Assembly (NCBI GenBank): GCA_018829205.1
Contig: JAHJUE010000022.1
Location: 248,001-312,000, forward strand
DNA length: 64,000 nt
DNA from: Bacteroidota bacterium
GTDB lineage: Bacteria; Bacteroidota; Ignavibacteria; Ignavibacteriales; Melioribacteraceae
Direction: 5' to 3'
In this document: positions 2,392 through 11,188 of the stretch, one piece after another
Position numbering within the stretch: the first letter of the stretch is position 1
How the letters are laid out: each line of letters opens with the position of its first letter
Notes under the pieces: model-generated
Database searches by the model: none
What the model was told of the DNA's origin: nothing
Seen by the model: the letters and a program-made list of their open reading frames with translations, nothing else
Position numbers and translations under genes: made by a program

Positions 2392-4722
2392 TTGAACTTC
2401 CCCGCATTTAAGCATCTGATCATTATTATATTTGTTTTGTTATGCTTTAATTACATAAACGCTCAAACTAATGATGTTACTATTTCAGGTTTTGTAACCG
2501 ACGCATCAACCGGCGAAGCTTTAATTGGAGCTAACATACTTTTATACTCAGATACCGTTAATGTTAACAATCGCCCTTTAAGAGGAACCAGCACAAACAG
2601 ATACGGATTTTACGCTTTGCCTAAAATAACCTCCGGCAAGTATTTTGTAATTTATAGGAGTCTGGGTTATAAAACGGTAGTAAATGAATTTAACGTAACT
2701 TTAACATCCGGGATCGTAAAGAATAATGTTGAAATGATCGGAGAAGAAGTTCAGATTGACGAAGTATTGGTAAAAGCTCAAAAAGAAAAAGATATTCTAA
2801 TAAGCAAAATCGATATACCGGAAGCAATATTAAAACAACTCCCTTCATTAAGCGGCGAAATAGAAATATTTAAGTCGCTTGCCATGCTTCCCGGAGTGCA
2901 GACTGCTTCAGAAATATCAAGCGGATTATATATCAGAGGAGGATCTCCAGATCAGACTCTTACATTGGTTGACGGAATGGTTTTATATAATCCTTCGCAT
3001 CTCGGTAATTTCACAAGCACATTTAACTCCAACGCGCTTCAGGATTTAAGATTAATTAAAGGCGCATTCCCGGCAGAATACGGAGGCAGATTATCAAGTG
3101 TTCTTGATATTACTTTAAGAAGCGGAAGCAAGGAAAAAGATAAAGGCACAATCGGATTGGGGGCAATTAATTCTTTTATAACTATGGAAGGTCCGCTTAC
3201 GGATAATTCTACATATATGATTGCCGGTCGAGGCATGTATTACGATGCATTTCAAAAAACATTTAATAATGAAAGTTCTGTCCCCCGTTACAATTTTTAC
3301 GATATAAACTCCAAGTTCACATATTCAATTTCCGAAAACGATGTTGTTTCATTATCCGCTTTTTTCAGCCGCGATCATTTATACAGTCCGGGAAACGCAA
3401 GCAGGTTAATTTATGATATATCATGGCAGAACGGTGCGTTTAATATTAACTGGCTTCAGAATACATCAAAATCAGTTTTAACGAACACAACGGTAAGTTA
3501 TATCAATTATGAGTTTAAATCGATTCTTGACGACGACCCGGCCGCGGTTTCGGCATCTGATTATTTCTCAAAATCAATTCTTAATGATTTTTTGATCAGG
3601 AAAAGTTTTGATTTCTACTGGCACGAAGACCATACAATCAAAACCGGGATCGATTTCTCAATTCATAATTATGATATAGTTTCAAGTAATTTTTATGATG
3701 TGAACTTTGAAACCAACGAATTGTTAAGGGAACAGCATAGCGCCAAAGAGGCTTCGTTTTATCTTCAGAACGAATCTCATTTCTCGTCCTTATTCAGCAC
3801 CAATATCGGTTTACGATTATATTATTTTAGTGAAAGTAAATTTTTTGATTTTGAGCCGAGAATTTCTCTTTCATTTTCTTTAACACAGGACTTATCAATT
3901 AAAGCCGCATATGCCACCGCTCATCAGTTTCTGCATCTGCTTACAAGAAATGATAAATCGCTGCCAACAGATTTATGGCTACCTTCATCAAAAAATATAG
4001 ATCCCAGCCGCTCAACACAATATGTAGCCGGAATTGAGCAGCTATTCGATAATCAGAAATATTTAGTAAGTATTGAAGCATATTACCGCGATATGAAAAA
4101 CTTATACGAGTTTAAGGAATCATCTGACTTTAATTATGCCGAACCGATTTATACACAGTTAACCAAGGGAGAAGGCGAAGCATACGGATTGGAATTCTTT
4201 TTGAATAAAAGAAGCGGAGATTTTACCGGCTGGATTGGTTATTCAATGGCATGGACAAGAAGGTTGTTTCCGGATTTAAATGCGGGTAAAATATTTTACC
4301 CGAGATACGACAGGCGGCATGACGTATCGGTAGTTTTAGCGTATGCCGTTACTGAAAACTTCAGCGTAAGCCTTACATGGTTGTATGCAACGGGACAGGG
4401 TTTTACTCTCCCATTCGGTCAATACCAGTTTGAAGATATACTGCCCAATCCCAACAGTGAAATTAAACTTGATTATTCCGAAAGGAACGGCTATAAACTT
4501 CCCGATTATCATAAGCTGGATATTAATTTCTCATATAAATTCAACTTCATGAAATTACCTTTTGAAATTTACTGCAATCTTTTAAATGTTTACAACAGAC
4601 AGAATGCTTTCGCGCATTATGTAACAATTGAAGACAGCGGCGGCGGAAAAAACGTTCCCGTGCAAAAACAAATTACTTTGTTCCCTTTTATACCAACAGT
4701 CGGTCTTAAAGTAGATTTTTAA
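2392..4722 (+). CDS. TonB-dependent outer-membrane receptor with carboxypeptidase-regulatory-like N-domain
   Basis: Outer-membrane active transporter or receptor energised by TonB. The layout is: signal peptide about 1-24 (cut after YINA); a CarboxypepD-regulatory-like beta-sandwich about 27-110 (SGFVTDASTGEALIGANILL); a plug domain about 145-245 containing GLYIRGGSPDQTLTLVDG and YGGRLSSVLDITLRSG; then a beta-barrel to the end, closing with aromatic Phe776 (VGLKVDF). At 776 residues it is in the shorter half of the family. Translation appears to start at TTG. A DUF4249 lipoprotein follows after 10 bases, a pairing common in Bacteroidota, and then the rhodanese-like lipoprotein array, which suggests a shared ligand. 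The substrate cannot be read from the sequence. Confidence 0.93.
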   Translation: MNFPAFKHLIIIIFVLLCFNYINAQTNDVTISGFVTDASTGEALIGANILLYSDTVNVNNRPLRGTSTNRYGFYALPKITSGKYFVIYRSLGYKTVVNEFNVTLTSGIVKNNVEMIGEEVQIDEVLVKAQKEKDILISKIDIPEAILKQLPSLSGEIEIFKSLAMLPGVQTASEISSGLYIRGGSPDQTLTLVDGMVLYNPSHLGNFTSTFNSNALQDLRLIKGAFPAEYGGRLSSVLDITLRSGSKEKDKGTIGLGAINSFITMEGPLTDNSTYMIAGRGMYYDAFQKTFNNESSVPRYNFYDINSKFTYSISENDVVSLSAFFSRDHLYSPGNASRLIYDISWQNGAFNINWLQNTSKSVLTNTTVSYINYEFKSILDDDPAAVSASDYFSKSILNDFLIRKSFDFYWHEDHTIKTGIDFSIHNYDIVSSNFYDVNFETNELLREQHSAKEASFYLQNESHFSSLFSTNIGLRLYYFSESKFFDFEPRISLSFSLTQDLSIKAAYATAHQFLHLLTRNDKSLPTDLWLPSSKNIDPSRSTQYVAGIEQLFDNQKYLVSIEAYYRDMKNLYEFKESSDFNYAEPIYTQLTKGEGEAYGLEFFLNKRSGDFTGWIGYSMAWTRRLFPDLNAGKIFYPRYDRRHDVSVVLAYAVTENFSVSLTWLYATGQGFTLPFGQYQFEDILPNPNSEIKLDYSERNGYKLPDYHKLDINFSYKFNFMKLPFEIYCNLLNVYNRQNAFAHYVTIEDSGGGKNVPVQKQITLFPFIPTVGLKVDF

Positions 4723-4732
4723 CGGTGAGAAA

Positions 4733-5527
4733 ATGAAAAAAAATATAACATTTATAATAATTTTATCCGCAATAATATTTACAAACTGCGAAAATGAACA
4801 GGTTGTTGAAATTTCCGATTCCTACATTGAGAAAGTTGTTGTAAGGGCGGAACTAGTTAAAGACAGTCTTTTCCAGGGTGTTTCAATAACAAGAACTCTT
4901 CCGCTTAACCAGCCCTATGATTTTAATTACGCGGAGTTTGAAAGTTTTACCGGATACCTAAGAATAAATGATACCGTTATTGTTCCCCTGCATTACACGG
5001 AAAACGGAATATATAAACCTCTGCATAGTTTGAGAATTAAAGGAAATAAAAAATATGAATTAATTGCGAATGCCGGAGGAACACAAATATATGCCGAAAC
5101 ATTTATACCTGATACAACCGTAATTATAAAGTCATATTTTAAGGATAATATATTCCTGGAAGCCCGTATAATTCCCAATTCGCATTATTCTTACGGGGCG
5201 GTTTGGGCAATTCAATCTTCTGTTAACCCGGTATTCGCCGATGATTTTTTCAGTATTGTAGAGCCATTGAGCAACTCAGGAACAATTAATGTGCAGACAA
5301 AAGAATTCTCTCTAAATTATTTGAATAACCCGGGATTAAGAATTCAAGTTTATGCCTTTGATAAAAACTTCACTCCATATTTTAAAACTAAAAAATACTC
5401 TCAATCCATTACAAATACATTCGGTCAAGGCGGAGGTTCTGTTACTTGGAATGTAAAAGGAGAAAATGTAATAGGAATTTTTATTGGTTATGCCCGTTCG
5501 CAGCTTATTAAACCTGACAGAGATTAG
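4733..5527 (+). CDS. DUF4249-type lipoprotein, partner of the TonB receptor
   Basis: A 264-residue lipoprotein with a type II signal (hydrophobic IIILSAIIFTNC, lipobox Cys about 19). The mature region resembles DUF4249: a beta-rich start reading VVVRAELVKDSLFQGVSITRT, then a domain with YELIANAGGTQIYAETFIPDT. DUF4249 proteins are typically encoded next to TonB receptors with CarboxypepD-like N-domains and are presumed to be surface subunits of those receptors; their biochemistry is not established. Here the gene starts 10 bases after the receptor and ends 17 bases before the first rhodanese-like lipoprotein, so it is very probably cotranscribed with both. The residues after the lipobox Cys (CENE) are acidic, as in lipoproteins exported to the cell surface in this phylum. 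Confidence 0.8.
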   Translation: MKKNITFIIILSAIIFTNCENEQVVEISDSYIEKVVVRAELVKDSLFQGVSITRTLPLNQPYDFNYAEFESFTGYLRINDTVIVPLHYTENGIYKPLHSLRIKGNKKYELIANAGGTQIYAETFIPDTTVIIKSYFKDNIFLEARIIPNSHYSYGAVWAIQSSVNPVFADDFFSIVEPLSNSGTINVQTKEFSLNYLNNPGLRIQVYAFDKNFTPYFKTKKYSQSITNTFGQGGGSVTWNVKGENVIGIFIGYARSQLIKPDRD

Positions 5528-5544
5528 AACAAGGAAATACTTTG

Positions 5545-6666
5545 ATGCGCCAAATATATTTTATATTCATAATTTCAATAATTGTAATCGCAAATTTAAG
5601 ATGTATTGAAGAAAACATTGCGGTCAATTCAACAGAAGAGCTTGATAATTCGGCATTGCTTCTTCGAGAATTTGAAGAACGGGGCGACTTCATAAATTCG
5701 GATGAATTCCCGGCTTTAATTAGTGCCGATTCGGTATTTACGGAATTAGATAACTTTACGGTTATTGATGTAAGAAACTTATCTGATTTTTTACAGGGCC
5801 ATATAACAAATTCGGTAAATGTAACGAAAGAAAATTTGTATGATTATGTTGCAGGTCTTGAGAATAATAAAAATAAGATACTTCTTGTAAGCAATACAGG
5901 TCAGGCCGCAGCTTATTATTTAACGTTGTTAAGATATGCAGGATTTAAAAATGTTTATTCACTAAAATTTGGGATTGCAGTTTGGAACGATAATTTCGCT
6001 CATTTATGGAAAAATAATTTTAATAATTTTATCAACGATTCCAGTTCACCTTTTAATCCCCAATATGATTTCAATCATATCGCGCAATATTATAAAGCAT
6101 CGTCAAACAGACTGCCTGAATTACAATTAAGCAAGGAAAATCTAACGGTAACTGAAATAGCCGAAGAAAGAATTAGAGCTGCAATAAATCTAGGGTTTGA
6201 TGAAAAATCATCGGGCGAAATAATAACGGAAAACACCGTAGGTATTGAATACATAACATGGAAAAATTATAAAAACACAAATGAGTTTTTTATTATCTGT
6301 TTCGCTAACACGGCGCTTTATTTCAGACCGAATACATCCCGCGGCTGTCTTTTACAGTGTTCTGGCCATCCTTGGGGAACTTATTTATATAATGCATTTC
6401 CTCCCTACGGCGATTTAAGAAGCACTGCAGATTTGCAGTCGTTGCCTAACAATAAACCAATTATTATTTACAGTTTCACAGGTGAAAGAAGCGCAATGGC
6501 TGTAGCTTATTTAAAAATGCTCGGTTATGATGCGCGATCTGTTGTTTTCGGAGGACATTACATGTTCCGCTCCAGGTTTATAACAACTAATTTTTATTCA
6601 TCGGAACTGCTTGCAAGTTTCGGAATACAGGAAAGTAGTTTTAAAAATTACCCTTATTCAAATTAG
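5545..6666 (+). CDS. double rhodanese-like lipoprotein, Cys-less (paralog 1 of 5)
   Basis: A 373-residue lipoprotein. The signal ends in ANLRC (Cys20), followed by acidic IEEN. After a family-wide segment (NSALLLREFEERGDF) comes a rhodanese-like domain, about 56-155: VIDVR, GHI, then the active-site loop VSNTGQAA, where Ser116 occupies the position of the sulfur-carrying Cys. A second rhodanese-like half, about 265-340, has GHPWGTYLY (matching GHIPGA) and the loop YSFTGERSA with Ser310 in place of Cys and Arg kept. Neither half can form a normal persulfide, so a binding or structural role is more likely than sulfurtransfer. A separate conserved Cys sits in IICFANTALY (about 252), and a CLLQC pair follows. 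I chose ATG 5545 over TTG 5542; AAGGAAA upstream is a plausible ribosome site. Confidence 0.82.
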   Translation: MRQIYFIFIISIIVIANLRCIEENIAVNSTEELDNSALLLREFEERGDFINSDEFPALISADSVFTELDNFTVIDVRNLSDFLQGHITNSVNVTKENLYDYVAGLENNKNKILLVSNTGQAAAYYLTLLRYAGFKNVYSLKFGIAVWNDNFAHLWKNNFNNFINDSSSPFNPQYDFNHIAQYYKASSNRLPELQLSKENLTVTEIAEERIRAAINLGFDEKSSGEIITENTVGIEYITWKNYKNTNEFFIICFANTALYFRPNTSRGCLLQCSGHPWGTYLYNAFPPYGDLRSTADLQSLPNNKPIIIYSFTGERSAMAVAYLKMLGYDARSVVFGGHYMFRSRFITTNFYSSELLASFGIQESSFKNYPYSN

Positions 6667-6698
6667 AACAATTTATTTAAAACGGGACTTTAATTATA

Positions 6699-7826
6699 AT
6701 GTTAAGACTAATAAATAGTATAATAATAACTTTGATGTTAATTATTATTTCTGGTTGTCTTGAAGAAAACATTTCAGTAACAGCAACAGAGGATTTTAAT
6801 AATTCAGCGCTGCTTTTACGAGAACTTGAAGAACGCGGCGACTTTATTAATTCACCGGAATTCCCTGCCTTGGTTAGCGCCGAATCGGTATATAATGCAT
6901 TTAACAGCTATATAATAATTGATATAAGACCAAAAATAGAATATGATAACGGACATATAATAAACTCAATAAACGTAAACAGCGATGAATTATACGAATA
7001 CGCAACTAAAATTGATGCCGGGACTAAAAGTATTCTGCTTGTCAGCAGAACCGGCCAAGCAGCGGCATATTATTTAACACTTTTAAGATATGCGGGAATA
7101 AAAAATATATATTCTCTTAAGTTCGGAATAGCGGTTTGGAATAATTACTTTGCTCATCTATGGACAAATAATTTTAATAATTTTATTGACGACAGAGCCG
7201 ATTCGGAATTAGCAAACGGACAATATGATTTTAACAATATTGCTCAATATTTCAAACCGGCTTCCAACAAATTGCCGAATATAAACCTTAGCAAACCAAA
7301 TTTATCTCAGAAAGAAATTACCGATGAAAGAATCAAGGAAGTAATTGCTTTAGGATTTGACGAAGCAAGCTATGGAAATATTATTACAGAAAATACTGTA
7401 GGCATCGAATATGTCGCATGGAAAGACTACAAAACTAGCGAAGAGTTTTTTATAGTTTGTTATGCAAACTCTGAATTATATTTTAGACCGCAGGAAACAA
7501 GGGGTTGTCTTCTTGAATGTTCTTCGCACCCGTGGGGCACACATTTATACAATGCCTTCTACCCTTACAATGATTTTAGAAGTTCGGCAGAACTACAGAG
7601 TCTTCCGAATAACAAACCGATTATTATTTACAGTTTTACCGGTGAAAGAAGCGCGATGGCCGTCGCATTTCTTAAATTGTTCGGATATAACGCAAAGTCA
7701 GTTATATTCGGAGGCCAATATATGTTCCATTCAAGATTTGTAACAACAAATTATAATTCATCCGAATCTTTATCGAAATTTGGAATTACAGAAAAAAGTT
7801 TTAAGAATTACCCATACTCTAATTAA
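6699..7826 (+). CDS. double rhodanese-like lipoprotein, Cys-less (paralog 2 of 5)
   Basis: Closest relative of the preceding gene; the two share long identical stretches (NNKPIIIYSFTGERSAMAV; the ending KNYPYSN). Lipobox ISGC followed by LEEN. The first rhodanese-like domain has IDIRP, GHI and the loop VSRTGQAAAYY with Ser for the catalytic Cys. The second has SHPWGTHLY and YSFTGERSA, again Ser for Cys with Arg retained. The CLLEC pair and the IVCYANSELY cysteine are conserved with paralog 1. It lies 32 bases after paralog 1 and looks like a recent tandem duplication of it. The 147-base gap after this gene divides the array into a similar pair and a more diverged trio. Confidence 0.82.
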   Translation: MLRLINSIIITLMLIIISGCLEENISVTATEDFNNSALLLRELEERGDFINSPEFPALVSAESVYNAFNSYIIIDIRPKIEYDNGHIINSINVNSDELYEYATKIDAGTKSILLVSRTGQAAAYYLTLLRYAGIKNIYSLKFGIAVWNNYFAHLWTNNFNNFIDDRADSELANGQYDFNNIAQYFKPASNKLPNINLSKPNLSQKEITDERIKEVIALGFDEASYGNIITENTVGIEYVAWKDYKTSEEFFIVCYANSELYFRPQETRGCLLECSSHPWGTHLYNAFYPYNDFRSSAELQSLPNNKPIIIYSFTGERSAMAVAFLKLFGYNAKSVIFGGQYMFHSRFVTTNYNSSESLSKFGITEKSFKNYPYSN

Positions 7827-7985
7827 GTATAATGTACAGTTAGTTAACGATTGGCTTTTTATAGATTTTATAACATAAACTTTTTGTTATAAGCAATTTT
7901 ACTATTTCCGATAATAATACAGTTCGTTTGTATAATATTAATCGGACTAAAATAACTAACTCTAATTACAGTTATGGATGAGCTA
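7827..7985 (+). promoter_or_regulatory. longest gap in the rhodanese array, with hairpin and possible internal promoter
   Basis: The other joints in this array are 32 bases or less, so this gap stands out. It holds a perfect 8-bp inverted repeat TTATAACA (7868-7875) / TGTTATAA (7885-7892) with a 9-base spacer, and a TATAAT sequence at 7931-7936 that could serve as a -10 element. A fainter pair, AGTTAGTTA (7838-7846) and TAACTAACT (7953-7961), brackets the whole gap. A terminator or attenuator followed by a secondary promoter for paralogs 3-5 would explain it, but AT-rich sequence makes each element weak alone. Confidence 0.35.
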
Positions 7986-9038
7986 ATGAATTATTCCACA
8001 TTAATATTATTTTTTTTAATATTATTAACCGCATGTATTGATAATAATGATTTACTATTGAATTCAACAGTACCGTTAGAACAAAATGCCTTAATTTTAA
8101 GAGAAGCCGAAAGCAGAGGATATTTTTTAAACACGCCTGAATTCCCGGCATTGTTAAATTCCGAGGATATATATAATGAAATCGAAAATTATAATATAAT
8201 AGATGTCCGTCCTGCTGATCATTATAATTCGGGATATATAAATAACTCAATTAATATTAATCATAAAGATTTGTATGATTATGTAAGTAATTTGGAGTCA
8301 GACAAACCTATATTATTGGTAAGCATTAATGGACAGGCTTCAGCTTACTACACTTCCCTTTTCAGATCGTATGGAATAAAAAATATTTACTCATTAAAAT
8401 TTGGAATAGCCGGGTGGAATAAATTATTTGAATATGAAATGATGGATTACATAGGAAATAAATCTTTAGGACATTCGATATTTCATTCCACTAATGGAAA
8501 ACATTATAATCTGCCCGAAATTATTGAAGATACTGCTTCAGAAAATATCAAAGAGATATTTGATCAAAGAATAAAAAATCTTTTTCAGGAAGGATTTAAT
8601 GAAATATTATCCAATAAGCAGATAGAAGATTCGCAAAATGATATCAGTTCATGCAGCTTCGGATATCTATATTCCAATATTAATCAAAATGAAATATTTG
8701 TCATGGCCAGCACAACAACTGATATTAAATATAATTTTCCAAAACCAGCAGGCACCATAATTTTTCACCCGTTTAACGGTATAAATGATTTTTATTCAAC
8801 GGAAAAATTACAGACAATTCCTTCCGATAAAATAATAACATGTTTTAGTTATTCGGGTCAGATTAGCGCAGCTACAGTAGCATATTTAAGACTATTAGGA
8901 TATAACGCCAAGTCGCTTTTATTCGGCGTACAATATTACGGGTACGATGCTATTAAAAACACTATAAGTACAGGAAGATTATATATTTACAATTCATCTA
9001 ATGATTTCCCGATTATAAAAATAAATAATGTGCAGTAA
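7986..9038 (+). CDS. double rhodanese-like lipoprotein, Cys-less (paralog 3 of 5)
   Basis: A 350-residue member of the array. I chose the second ATG (7986) because the signal MNYSTLILFFLILLTAC then starts without acidic residues; the ATG at 7974 would add MDEL. Lipobox LTAC followed by IDNND. The first rhodanese-like domain has IDVRP, GYI and the loop VSINGQASAYY (Ser for Cys). The second ends in the loop FSYSGQISAAT, where both the catalytic Cys and the Arg of the motif are lost. This is the most diverged member: it lacks the CLLxC pair and the otherwise conserved Cys before the ALY/DLY motif. A Cys at TCFSYSG lies two residues ahead of the catalytic position and is not equivalent to it. Confidence 0.8.
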   Translation: MNYSTLILFFLILLTACIDNNDLLLNSTVPLEQNALILREAESRGYFLNTPEFPALLNSEDIYNEIENYNIIDVRPADHYNSGYINNSININHKDLYDYVSNLESDKPILLVSINGQASAYYTSLFRSYGIKNIYSLKFGIAGWNKLFEYEMMDYIGNKSLGHSIFHSTNGKHYNLPEIIEDTASENIKEIFDQRIKNLFQEGFNEILSNKQIEDSQNDISSCSFGYLYSNINQNEIFVMASTTTDIKYNFPKPAGTIIFHPFNGINDFYSTEKLQTIPSDKIITCFSYSGQISAATVAYLRLLGYNAKSLLFGVQYYGYDAIKNTISTGRLYIYNSSNDFPIIKINNVQ

Positions 9039-9062
9039 AGGAATAGAATAAAGATACTAATT

Positions 9063-10127
9063 ATGAAAAAATCAGTACCAATTATTTTTATAATATTTAT
9101 TTTAATTGCTCAAGGCTGCATTGAAGAAATCACCGATTCCGCAGCCGGATTCAATTTTAATAACTCCGCATTAATTCTGCGTGAAATTGAATCGAGAGGA
9201 GATTATATTAATTCACCTAACTTCCCCGCTTCAATTACGGCCGAAGAATTAAATTCAAACTTAGCAAATTATATAGTTTTGGATGTTAGAAAAGCCGAAG
9301 ATTTCAGCAACGGACATATTAAAGATGCCGTTAACATAACAAGCGGATCGTTACTTGACTATATTATTAATTCTAATAATTTGAATAAAGATTTTGTAAT
9401 AATCAGTAATACAGGCCAGGCATCTTCTTATTATACCGCGTTATTGAGGTTATACGGATTAAGGAATGTATATTCACTTAAATTCGGAATGGCTTCCTGG
9501 CATAAAGATTTCTCTCACTATTTTACGGATAACATAGCTGAATTGACGAATATGGAAAATTACCATAATGTTGATAATCCCAAACCAAATTTTTCTGAAC
9601 TACCTTTATTGGAAAAAGGAAATAATCTTACTGCCGGTGAATTATTAAACAAGCGAATTATAGATTTTCTAATTGAAGGTTTTAATGAAAATGCCTTGCC
9701 GTATTCAATCACGGTAAATACTATTGACAAAGATTATTTTGCAAGCATGATAAATTTGAATAGTTCTGAATATTTTATAATATGTTCCGGTAAATCAGAT
9801 TTATATTTTGTGGGACAGCTCGGCGTATTTGAAAATCCAGGTCACCCAAAAGGAGCTGTGCTTTATAAAACGTTTTATCCGGTTTCAGAATTAAGTAGTG
9901 TAAATTATCTGCAGACAATACCGGTTTCAAAAAAAATAATTTTGTACAGCTACGCAGGAGAACTAAGTGCAATAATAACAGCTCATTTAAGACTTTTAGG
10001 ATATGACGCCAAATCACTTTTATTCGGCGCACATGCCCTTTTCTATCAAAGGTTAGCTTCATCAGAAGCTTTTATAAATTATACATATCATATAAACTTA
10101 GTGAAAGATTTCCCTTATGTTAAGTAA
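9063..10127 (+). CDS. double rhodanese-like lipoprotein, Cys-less (paralog 4 of 5)
   Basis: A 354-residue lipoprotein with signal MKKSVPIIFIIFILIAQGC and acidic IEE after the Cys. The first rhodanese-like domain has LDVRK, GHI and the loop ISNTGQASSYY (Ser for Cys). The second has GHPKGAVLY, matching the GHIPGA segment of true rhodaneses, and the loop YSYAGELSA (Ser for Cys, Leu for Arg). The conserved free Cys is kept in IICSGKSDLY. The gene begins 24 bases after paralog 3, and its last 11 bases overlap the start of paralog 5, so those two are translationally coupled. Confidence 0.82.
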   Translation: MKKSVPIIFIIFILIAQGCIEEITDSAAGFNFNNSALILREIESRGDYINSPNFPASITAEELNSNLANYIVLDVRKAEDFSNGHIKDAVNITSGSLLDYIINSNNLNKDFVIISNTGQASSYYTALLRLYGLRNVYSLKFGMASWHKDFSHYFTDNIAELTNMENYHNVDNPKPNFSELPLLEKGNNLTAGELLNKRIIDFLIEGFNENALPYSITVNTIDKDYFASMINLNSSEYFIICSGKSDLYFVGQLGVFENPGHPKGAVLYKTFYPVSELSSVNYLQTIPVSKKIILYSYAGELSAIITAHLRLLGYDAKSLLFGAHALFYQRLASSEAFINYTYHINLVKDFPYVK

Positions 10128-11157
10128 ATACATTCTGATTTTTGCAGTTATAATCACCGGCTGTATTGAAGAAATCGACACTGCAAATATTCCATTAGAA
10201 GAATTCACAACAAGCTCGTTATTGCTGCGAGAGATAGAAGAAAGAGGCGATTACATAAACACAAGCGCATCATCTCTTTTTTCATCCTTTGTTACGGCAG
10301 ATTCGCTTTACAGAAATAAGGATAAGTTTGATATTATTGATATAAGATCTACTGATAAGTACCAAGCGGGACATATTGAAGGTTCAGTAAATATTTCAAC
10401 TAATAATTTATTCGAATATTTTAAAAACAACTCAATTAAAAATTCAGTAATTGTAAGCAGCAGCGGACAATCGGCGGCATATTATACGTACCTTTTCAGA
10501 ATATACGGTTATTCAAATGTTTACTCGTTATTATTCGGAATCGCTGCGTGGAATAAATTATTTGAAAATGAAGTTCTAAATAACGTAAGCAATATGGGAA
10601 TAGGAACAGATATAACATTACATTATCCTTCAAAATATTATTCTTTACCTGCGGTCCCTAATGTTGAGAATAAAAATATAAAAGATTTATTTGAAGAACG
10701 TATAATAAATTTATTTCTTGAAGGTTTTCAAGAAGAAATACCTATAGGAGTCGATACTTACCAATCAATTAATACAATTAATTTCGCGCAGCTTAAATCA
10801 AACTTATCCGATTATTACACTGCCTGTTACGGAACCTCGGATTTGTATAGTGATCCTAAAGGCGGAATTGGCCACCTGCCGGGTACGGTTTTATATTATC
10901 CATATTATCCAAATTCTGATTTAAGCAGTGTATCGTTTCTGCAAACCTTTCCGGACGATAGAAAGATAGCAATTTACAGCTATTCGGGACATTTAAGCGC
11001 AATGTTAACTGCACATCTAAGATTATTAGGTTATGATGCAAGGTCGGTATTATTCGGCGGACTTGACGGTAATTATAACTATTTAAAAGATTTAATAAGC
11101 GCGGGAAGGTTCTATTATTATACCGGCGCAAAAGATTTTCCGTTAATTATTAATTAA
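10117..11157 (+). CDS. double rhodanese-like lipoprotein, Cys-less (paralog 5 of 5)
   Basis: Last member of the array, 346 residues. Short signal MLSKYILIFAVIITGC, then IEEID. The first rhodanese-like domain has IDIRS, GHI and the loop VSSSGQSAAYY (Ser for Cys). The second has GHLPGTVLY and YSYSGHLSA (Ser for Cys, Leu for Arg), then LGYDARSVLFGG. The conserved Cys is in TACYGTSDLY. The start codon lies inside the end of paralog 4 (11-base overlap). A strong hairpin terminator follows directly after the stop, marking the end of the seven-gene transcription unit that begins with the TonB receptor. Confidence 0.82.
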   Translation: MLSKYILIFAVIITGCIEEIDTANIPLEEFTTSSLLLREIEERGDYINTSASSLFSSFVTADSLYRNKDKFDIIDIRSTDKYQAGHIEGSVNISTNNLFEYFKNNSIKNSVIVSSSGQSAAYYTYLFRIYGYSNVYSLLFGIAAWNKLFENEVLNNVSNMGIGTDITLHYPSKYYSLPAVPNVENKNIKDLFEERIINLFLEGFQEEIPIGVDTYQSINTINFAQLKSNLSDYYTACYGTSDLYSDPKGGIGHLPGTVLYYPYYPNSDLSSVSFLQTFPDDRKIAIYSYSGHLSAMLTAHLRLLGYDARSVLFGGLDGNYNYLKDLISAGRFYYYTGAKDFPLIIN

Positions 11158-11158
11158 T

Positions 11159-11188
11159 AAAAAAAACCCGCATAACTGCGGGTTTTTA
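11159..11188. terminator. bidirectional rho-independent terminator
   Basis: CCCGCA (11167-11172), loop TAAC, TGCGGG (11177-11182), with an A-run before and a T-run after the stem. It can therefore end both the plus-strand rhodanese operon and the minus-strand hsp20/dnaK cluster that converge here. Confidence 0.9.

Follow-up and report, generated by a model that had tools for sequence, protein, structure and literature searches.

Locus organization

The window analysed here is a stretch of 64,000 nucleotides of contig JAHJUE010000022.1 from a Bacteroidota genome of the family Melioribacteraceae. Its positions 2392-11157 encode, all on the + strand, a TonB-dependent receptor of 776 amino acids (aa), a DUF4249-type lipoprotein of 264 aa and five rhodanese-like lipoproteins (RHO) of 346-375 aa (Table 1). 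We find that this gene order recurs in relatives, that RHO proteins next to TonB receptors have, with few exceptions, lost the cysteine of the rhodanese active-site loops, and that most of them share a new Cys elsewhere in their second half. The five reading frames lie where a previous interpretation of the letters alone (the sequence-only reading) had placed them. That reading took the proteins for pairs of Cys-less rhodanese-like halves with a binding or recognition role; its observation is partly confirmed and its interpretation partly supported by the results below.

In gene order, the intergenic gaps measure 10, 17, 32, 159 and 24 base pairs (bp), and the final gene pair overlaps by 11 bp. 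A terminator hairpin follows the genes, as had been claimed. Given the 159-bp gap ahead of protein 3, their membership in one transcription unit, also claimed, is unproven. Promoter-like matches in the region are at chance level (53 found vs. 45.7 in shuffled sequences, standard deviation 6.9). No further full-length RHO copy was found in the window's own genome.

Table 1. Features of the TonB-DUF4249-RHO locus (positions within the window).
Feature	Position	Strand	Evidence
TonB-dependent receptor, 776 aa, CarboxypepD_reg-like N-terminal domain and plug	2392..4722	+	Pfam PF13715, PF13620, PF07715 above cut-off
DUF4249-type lipoprotein, 264 aa, putative receptor partner (perhaps lid)	4733..5527	+	PF14054 17.8 bits (below cut-off); homologues beside TonB in relatives; BT2172/BT2173 literature pair
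Rhodanese-like lipoprotein 1; loops S116, S310; relocated C252	5545..6666	+	PF00581 3.1e-20
Rhodanese-like lipoprotein 2; loops S116, S312; relocated C254; 65% identity to lipoprotein 1	6699..7826	+	PF00581 7.8e-20
Rhodanese-like lipoprotein 3; loops S113, S288; Ala at relocated-Cys position	7986..9038	+	PF00581 1.1e-15
Rhodanese-like lipoprotein 4; loops S115, S296; C241 sole Cys besides lipidated one	9063..10127	+	PF00581 4.9e-19; model pLDDT 89.0
Rhodanese-like lipoprotein 5; loops S114, S288; C237 sole Cys besides lipidated one; 11-bp overlap with 4	10117..11157	+	PF00581 6.2e-19
TGT codon, relocated Cys252 of protein 1	6298..6300	+	
TGT codon, relocated Cys254 of protein 2	7458..7460	+	
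TGT codon, relocated Cys241 of protein 4	9783..9785	+	
TGT codon, relocated Cys237 of protein 5	10825..10827	+	
Terminator hairpin, 11 pairs, between operon and converging small heat-shock-like gene	11162..11187	.	Listed on - strand; T-ending stem also on + strand

Rhodanese fold

The first half of all five RHO proteins matches the Pfam model PF00581 (Rhodanese) with E-values of 1.1e-15 to 3.1e-20 (58.3-72.9 bits for the whole proteins, cut-off 22.2). Searched alone, half 2 gives matches for four proteins (8.8e-5, 1.6e-4, 0.024 and 0.0052, the first two above the Pfam cut-off) and none for the third one (7986-9038). That is, the claim of two rhodanese halves per protein holds by profile for half 1 throughout, and for half 2 it is clear in two proteins, weak in two and lacks a match in one. 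The best profile match in the PDB is 6mxv (E 3.6e-12). A further claim, i.e., that all five share the segment N-S-A-L-x-L-R-E-x-E-x-R-G, is exact in three, while proteins 3 and 5 differ at its start.

The structure of protein 4 predicted from 23 sequences has a mean predicted local distance difference test score (pLDDT) of 89.0 and a predicted template modelling score (pTM) of 0.88; an earlier model that drew on five sequences reached a mean pLDDT of 59.7, too poor for use. Half 1 of the model fits 3gk5 over 99 residues (Z 15.8, root-mean-square deviation (rmsd) 1.9). Tandem rhodaneses align with 191-200 residues, e.g., 1uar with 200 residues spanning 56-329 (Z 10.7, rmsd 10.6) and 3aax_A with 196 residues across both halves; half 2 is covered only within such two-half alignments. 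Here, the rmsd exceeds 10 because the halves are arranged differently. Whole-chain rmsd values from Foldseek are large, and the VIA rows were used in their place. The predicted fold is that of a rhodanese, as the sequence-only reading had assumed.

With two consecutive rhodanese domains and a structural match of about 200 residues, the RHO proteins resemble tandem-domain sulfurtransferases (1uar, 3aax). Unlike these, the window proteins have no loop Cys in either half, show in four of five cases a Cys at the Asp position of the half-2 D-x-R motif, and are lipoproteins with a TonB neighbour. Most of the 50 structural alignments listed for protein 4, nearly all of which concern half 1, end in the C-terminal tail (model range to 349-354). 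These ends (residues 350-354) suggest that the tail packs against domain 1.

Recurrence of the gene order

The DUF4249 protein was searched in 164 genomes of the order and matched in 49. In 30 of the 49 (30/164 searched), DUF4249 is immediately followed by a RHO gene, with the proteins of loci L040 and L050 (genomes G024, G054) counted in. The other 19 comprise 15 genomes with DUF4249 but no RHO (in one of them the contig ends ahead of the TonB gene), three whose contigs end short of the site, and one fragment. A search of the class, in which 144 of 391 genomes gave a match at 1e-12 (in many cases to ordinary rhodaneses), added five genomes of two other families that carry the cassette. TonB-DUF4249-RHO is a recurring gene order, conserved in relatives, and not a local oddity.

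Among 58 genomes of relatives, the window's own included, 42 show some match at 1e-5, a number of them to ordinary rhodaneses only. Another 13 loci from Ignavibacteriaceae, Ignavibacteriales and related metagenome-assembled genomes (MAGs) have the same gene order and 14 RHO proteins, all 14 with the relocated Cys described below; they probably duplicate records already in the set and are not counted twice. When the search was widened to the phylum, 30 of 395 genomes matched at 1e-25, and the only ones from outside the class were two genomes of one family. The stretches examined around these two matches (15.9 and 9.5 kilobases (kb), the 9.5-kb stretch being cut by the contig end) contain neither a TonB nor a DUF4249 homologue. 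In a distant family of the phylum (L205, L206), two RHO homologues are adjacent, with neither TonB nor cytochrome within the stretch examined, one homologue having Glu in loop 2.

RHO copy numbers vary from the five seen here to two in L058, L117, L122 and L179, and single copies are retained in distant genomes; G024 has at least three genes or gene parts. One genome (G120) has two cassettes, L122 and L123; in one of these, RHO is present twice and neither copy has the relocated Cys.

Homologues were drawn only from the loci retrieved, not from every genome match: 65 were listed first and 106 (>200 aa) after the wider search, and the tree adds seven (L238-L243, L245). Left out of the tree set were L225-L237, probable duplicates of counted genomes, and the partial L244_16. 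We call RHO proteins associated with TonB and DUF4249 TonB-type (TDR). The contigs of L040 (two proteins) and L050 begin after the TonB gene; these proteins are TonB-type by tree, L050 also by its DUF4249 neighbour. Moving them raises the TonB-type from 43 to 46 and lowers the non-TonB set from 63 to 60.

Two groups of RHO proteins

In a tree calculated with the loop and new-Cys columns excluded, the 46 TonB-type proteins and all the rest form the two sides of one branch, with a support of 99 in the Shimodaira-Hasegawa-like approximate likelihood ratio test (SH-aLRT). The split is also present in the tree of the first 64 homologues (loop columns excluded). On the other side, the sister group has Cys in both loops in 57/60 proteins, and 54/60 of its loci have, within 3.5 kb, a neighbour that carries ten or more CxxCH motifs, vs. 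0/43 of the TonB-linked ones. The multiheme neighbour in L065 matches cytochrome c7/c3 models. The sequence-only reading had missed this Cys/Cys group beside multiheme cytochromes as well as the proposed DUF4249-TonB (BT2172) pairing.

The setting of the sister group has a counterpart in ExtH of Geobacter sulfurreducens, a rhodanese-family lipoprotein of the cytochrome cluster extHIJKL that is spoken of as extracellular in excerpts of two reports (PMC6148476, PMC5877670). The likeness, i.e., a rhodanese-family lipoprotein in a cytochrome cluster, is one of description and not of sequence; by analogy, the Cys/Cys lipoprotein might belong to an electron conduit as its surface part, in the manner of ExtH. 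The cluster descriptions in these excerpts mention no TonB or DUF4249 (PMC6148476, PMC5877670), and the window proteins differ in having no loop Cys, the TonB-linked loci in having no multiheme cytochrome neighbour within 3.5 kb (0/43). The literature searched, the scope of which left aside bioRxiv preprints, contained no paper joining tandem rhodanese, lipoprotein and cytochrome.

The Cys/Cys two-domain lipoprotein beside a cytochrome of about ten hemes (L065 7541-9969, L240 920-3339 and others) is widely distributed across the class and occurs in MAGs labelled Bacteroidales as well, and its half 2 reads N-Y-W where D-x-R is expected. In L242, a 612-aa protein with three rhodanese stretches (7827-9665) lies among multiheme cytochromes; L241 has a similar one of 620 aa.

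Loss of the loop cysteines

All ten active-site loops of the window proteins have Ser at the position of the catalytic Cys that marks an active sulfurtransferase, encoded by AGC or AGT. This bears out what had been claimed, and the half-1 pattern given for it, VSxxGQ(A/S), needs correction for protein 4, whose loop starts with IS. Among the 46 TonB-type proteins, loop 1 has Ser 43, Cys 2 and Gly 1 times, while loop 2 shows Ser 28, Asp 11, Cys 2, Gly 2, Glu 1 and Thr 1 (one cut off); none has Cys in both loops. The remainder of loop 1 is kept in the TonB-linked relatives, i.e., Ser-x-x-Gly-Gln has its Ser in 40, Gly in 43 and Gln in 40 of 43 proteins.

Between copies 1 and 2, the proportion of nonsynonymous differences (pN) is 0.22 and that of synonymous differences (pS) 0.76; two other pairs give 0.38/0.70 and 0.38/0.74, with pS at or near saturation in all three. 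From these values the window genes look to be under purifying selection. Together with the conserved loop 1, the difference for copies 1 and 2 upholds the view that the Cys loss reflects selection and not decay.

A relocated cysteine in half 2

Calling the proteins Cys-less was wrong. Four of the five window proteins have a conserved half-2 Cys outside the loop (C252, C254, C241, C237), and proteins 4 and 5 contain no further Cys apart from the lipidated one. Besides the loops and the lipidated Cys, a single alignment column stands out with Cys in 39/43 TonB-linked proteins. This relocated Cys is present in 42/45 TonB-type proteins (L040 and L050 included, the cut-off L114 excluded) vs. 0/67 other homologues, which show Asn 63, Ser 2, Ala 1 and Asp 1 in the same column. 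Since half 2 of L245 reads D-V-R here, the column corresponds to the Asp of the D-x-R motif; the half-1 equivalent of this Asp is invariant among the TonB-linked proteins (43/43). Exactly one Cys beyond residue 40 is found in 23/46 TonB-type proteins, and in 22 of these 23 it sits at the relocated site (exception L122_4).

In the model of protein 4, strand 237-242 contains C241 and strand 291-295 is immediately followed by S296, the half-1 equivalents being D74 and S115. Rhodaneses have both of these strand ends on one side of the sheet, so that C241 probably faces the loop-2 pocket. An intermolecular disulfide to the TonB or DUF4249 protein was considered as well and rejected: there is no conserved Cys in the TonB receptors (31 RHO-linked, 18 without RHO) and none but the lipidated one in the DUF4249 proteins (36 RHO-linked, 17 without RHO). 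The lack of a matching Cys in either partner speaks against a conserved disulfide. The literature searched contained nothing on a rhodanese with Cys247 and Asp180.

Two peculiarities of single copies were noted. Copies 1 and 2 have an extra C-x-x-x-C pair (C268/C272 and C270/C274; 6346-6360 and 7506-7520) in an insert ahead of the G/S-H-P segment. Copy 3 is odd in three respects, namely the upstream gap of 159 bp, Ala at the relocated-Cys position, and a further Cys, C286, which precedes its loop-2 Ser by two residues.

Receptor, putative DUF4249 partner and probable surface location

The plug domain of the receptor is well recognized (PF07715, 37.5 bits, cut-off 23.9). The window's DUF4249 protein reaches 17.8 bits for PF14054 vs. 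a cut-off of 28.5, which is passed by 0/8 RHO-linked DUF4249 proteins tested and by 3/4 RHO-less sister proteins (55.4, 49.8 and 43.1 bits). Its previous designation as a DUF4249 lipoprotein needs qualifying in that the window protein itself stays below the Pfam cut-off; homologues lie beside TonB in relatives. Among PDB sequences, only matches at E 0.85 or worse were found for it. In the receptor tree, 15 RHO-less TonB receptors form a separate clade (SH-aLRT 99), while three receptors from contigs ending short of the RHO site group among the RHO-linked ones. Given that the RHO-less receptors have a clade of their own, the cassette seems to have been assembled once.

A pairing of this kind is known from Bacteroides, where the TonB transporter BT2172 and the DUF4249 protein BT2173 form a conserved operon with a proposed joint function according to a passage of PMC11003636, which cites Price et al. 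In both cases a TonB receptor lies beside a lipoprotein, a DUF4249 protein there and a DUF4249-type one here; the present locus differs by the rhodanese-derived lipoprotein that comes third, and RHO-linked receptors group apart from RHO-less ones. The preprint of Price et al. reportedly concerns lids, as its title says. SusCD-type importers likewise combine a TonB receptor with a lipoprotein, whereas the present locus has a DUF4249-type protein in place of SusD, a 776-aa receptor and a rhodanese as third component. In the literature searched, DUF4249 was found in a single paper, and no paper combined rhodanese, TonB-dependent receptor, lipoprotein and Bacteroidetes.

The lipobox Cys is invariant in the five window proteins, and a simple rule detects a lipobox in 42/43 TonB-linked proteins, with K/E/D at +3 in 37/42 and D/E at +4 in 35/42. 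Surface-export signals of other Bacteroidetes are K-(D/E)2 and SDDDD-type (excerpt of PMC5080379); the signal of this class may differ. The +3/+4 residues are reminiscent of these signals without matching them exactly, and from such sequence features the rhodanese lipoproteins are likely surface-located.

Proposed function and alternatives

A binding or recognition role beside the TonB receptor, as put forward by the sequence-only reading, is the likeliest reading of these data. More precisely, RHO would give a DUF4249-paired TonB transporter a third component, probably exposed at the surface, which binds a ligand and presents it, its thiol having shifted from the loop to an adjacent strand; we regard the chance of this as about even. 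The operon would encode a three-component outer-membrane importer, i.e., a TonB-dependent receptor, a DUF4249-type lipoprotein (probably a lid) and a rhodanese-derived surface lipoprotein in five divergent copies, which would catch the ligand at the cell surface and pass it to the receptor. This last component would derive from a two-domain rhodanese, and the group sister to it keeps Cys/Cys beside multiheme cytochromes. On joining the TonB-DUF4249 pair, its loop thiols would have been swapped (for Ser in half 1; for Ser, Asp, Gly and others in half 2), such that the loops could hold an anion or polar group and a persulfide would no longer be possible. A single Cys would have arisen where the first strand of half 2 ends, at the Asp position of D-x-R, probably facing the same pocket, and might confer selectivity for a soft metal, chalcogen or thiol ligand, which would be bound in the thiol-free loop-1 cradle and at the relocated thiol. 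The tandem copies suggest different ligands or multimers. As a narrower version, we tentatively propose that the relocated-Cys rhodanese is a dedicated surface capture module, with an anion cradle that has no thiol in its loop and a D-x-R thiol binding a soft metal, chalcogen or thiol nutrient; this is conceivable, if on balance doubtful.

Several observations weigh against this proposal. Cys-loop homologues with the same neighbours, which the sequence-only reading had named as refuting its own claim, do exist in part: four TonB-linked proteins keep one loop Cys, namely L058 (two copies, loop 1), L039 and L042 (loop 2), while Cys in both loops is found in 0/46. The relocated Cys is absent from one window protein (7986-9038, Ala) and from both L122 copies, it could be buried and structural, and its nearness to the loop-2 pocket rests on strand order. 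The new Cys was gained on the same branch on which the loop Cys was lost, so that only one event and later conservation connect the two changes, and the trees are quick searches with SH-aLRT support only. Counted from the lipidated Cys, positions +2 to +6 include two acidic residues in 24/42 TonB-linked proteins vs. 42/52 of the sister group, which leaves surface export uncertain. Moreover, the cassette has no constant further neighbour (of 10 flanking proteins, nine belong to unrelated families and one has no match), an Rfam search for riboswitches gave tRNAs only in eight relatives' loci and nothing in the window, and in 30 upstream regions neither a common motif nor a Fur-like box scored better than in shuffled sequence.

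The same data can be read without ligand capture. Rhodanese halves devoid of chemistry might merely be a scaffold, i.e., a platform that joins the TonB and DUF4249 proteins, with the conserved Cys as a buried core residue replacing Asp/Asn. Inactive rhodanese domains do act as binding platforms, e.g., in TBC1D23 (excerpt of PMC7274447), and the variable loop 2 (Ser 28, Asp 11, six others and one cut off among 46) fits this role. However, a plain scaffold would have no need of the Ser-x-x-Gly-Gln that loop 1 keeps in nearly all proteins, and the new position is specifically Cys (42/45), not generally hydrophobic; we consider a scaffold unlikely. It is distinctly improbable in our view that RHO is still an enzyme, its relocated Cys performing sulfur/selenium transfer or thiol-disulfide exchange at the surface and thereby freeing or altering a nutrient before import. 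The conservation of this Cys would agree with catalysis, as would its being the sole candidate besides the lipidated one in two of five window proteins and the site of the single Cys in 22 of 23 TonB-type proteins. Yet, it is missing in one window copy and both L122 copies, the first residue of the adjacent loop 2 is not conserved, and we know of no precedent for a rhodanese nucleophile at the D-x-R position, which counts against an enzyme.

A role in extracellular electron transfer, retained from the cytochrome-linked sister group, would draw on the shared descent with Cys/Cys proteins beside multiheme cytochromes (54/60 loci) and on ExtH of Geobacter, which the excerpted reports describe as a lipoprotein of the rhodanese family within a cytochrome cluster (PMC6148476, PMC5877670). 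With a CxxCH-bearing neighbour within 3.5 kb in 0/43 TonB-linked loci and Cys in both loops in none, we judge it very unlikely. Hardly credible is neutral decay of redundant paralogues: five tandem copies, one of them without the new Cys, might be expected from it, but the frames are intact, single copies are kept in distant genomes, and pN is below pS in copies 1 and 2 (0.22 vs. 0.76) as in two other pairs (0.38 vs. 0.70 and 0.74), pS being at or near saturation.

In this locus and its relatives, a sulfurtransferase fold has been recruited next to a TonB importer as a third component that recurs. The tree shows one switch, i.e., cytochrome context and Cys/Cys loops vs. TonB-DUF4249 context, Ser loops and a new Cys. 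The lost reactive sulfurs and the new conserved Cys in the same fold suggest a novel mode of nutrient capture at the cell surface in Ignavibacteria, with a bearing on how pseudo-enzymes gain transport roles on the surface of uncultured anaerobes. Should the surface capture module be true, it would represent a class of third component new to TonB importers, and its tandem copies would be tuned to different ligands. The conserved new Cys and the Ser loop offer point mutations for a direct substrate test.

Neighbouring genes

Three genomes of one genus have an unannotated open reading frame of about 1,080-1,100 aa immediately after the cassette (L126 3696-6944, L123 9923-13159, L047 5745-9050); the two tested have no Pfam match. 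In the window, an M1 family peptidase gene at 296-2284 is divergent from the operon.

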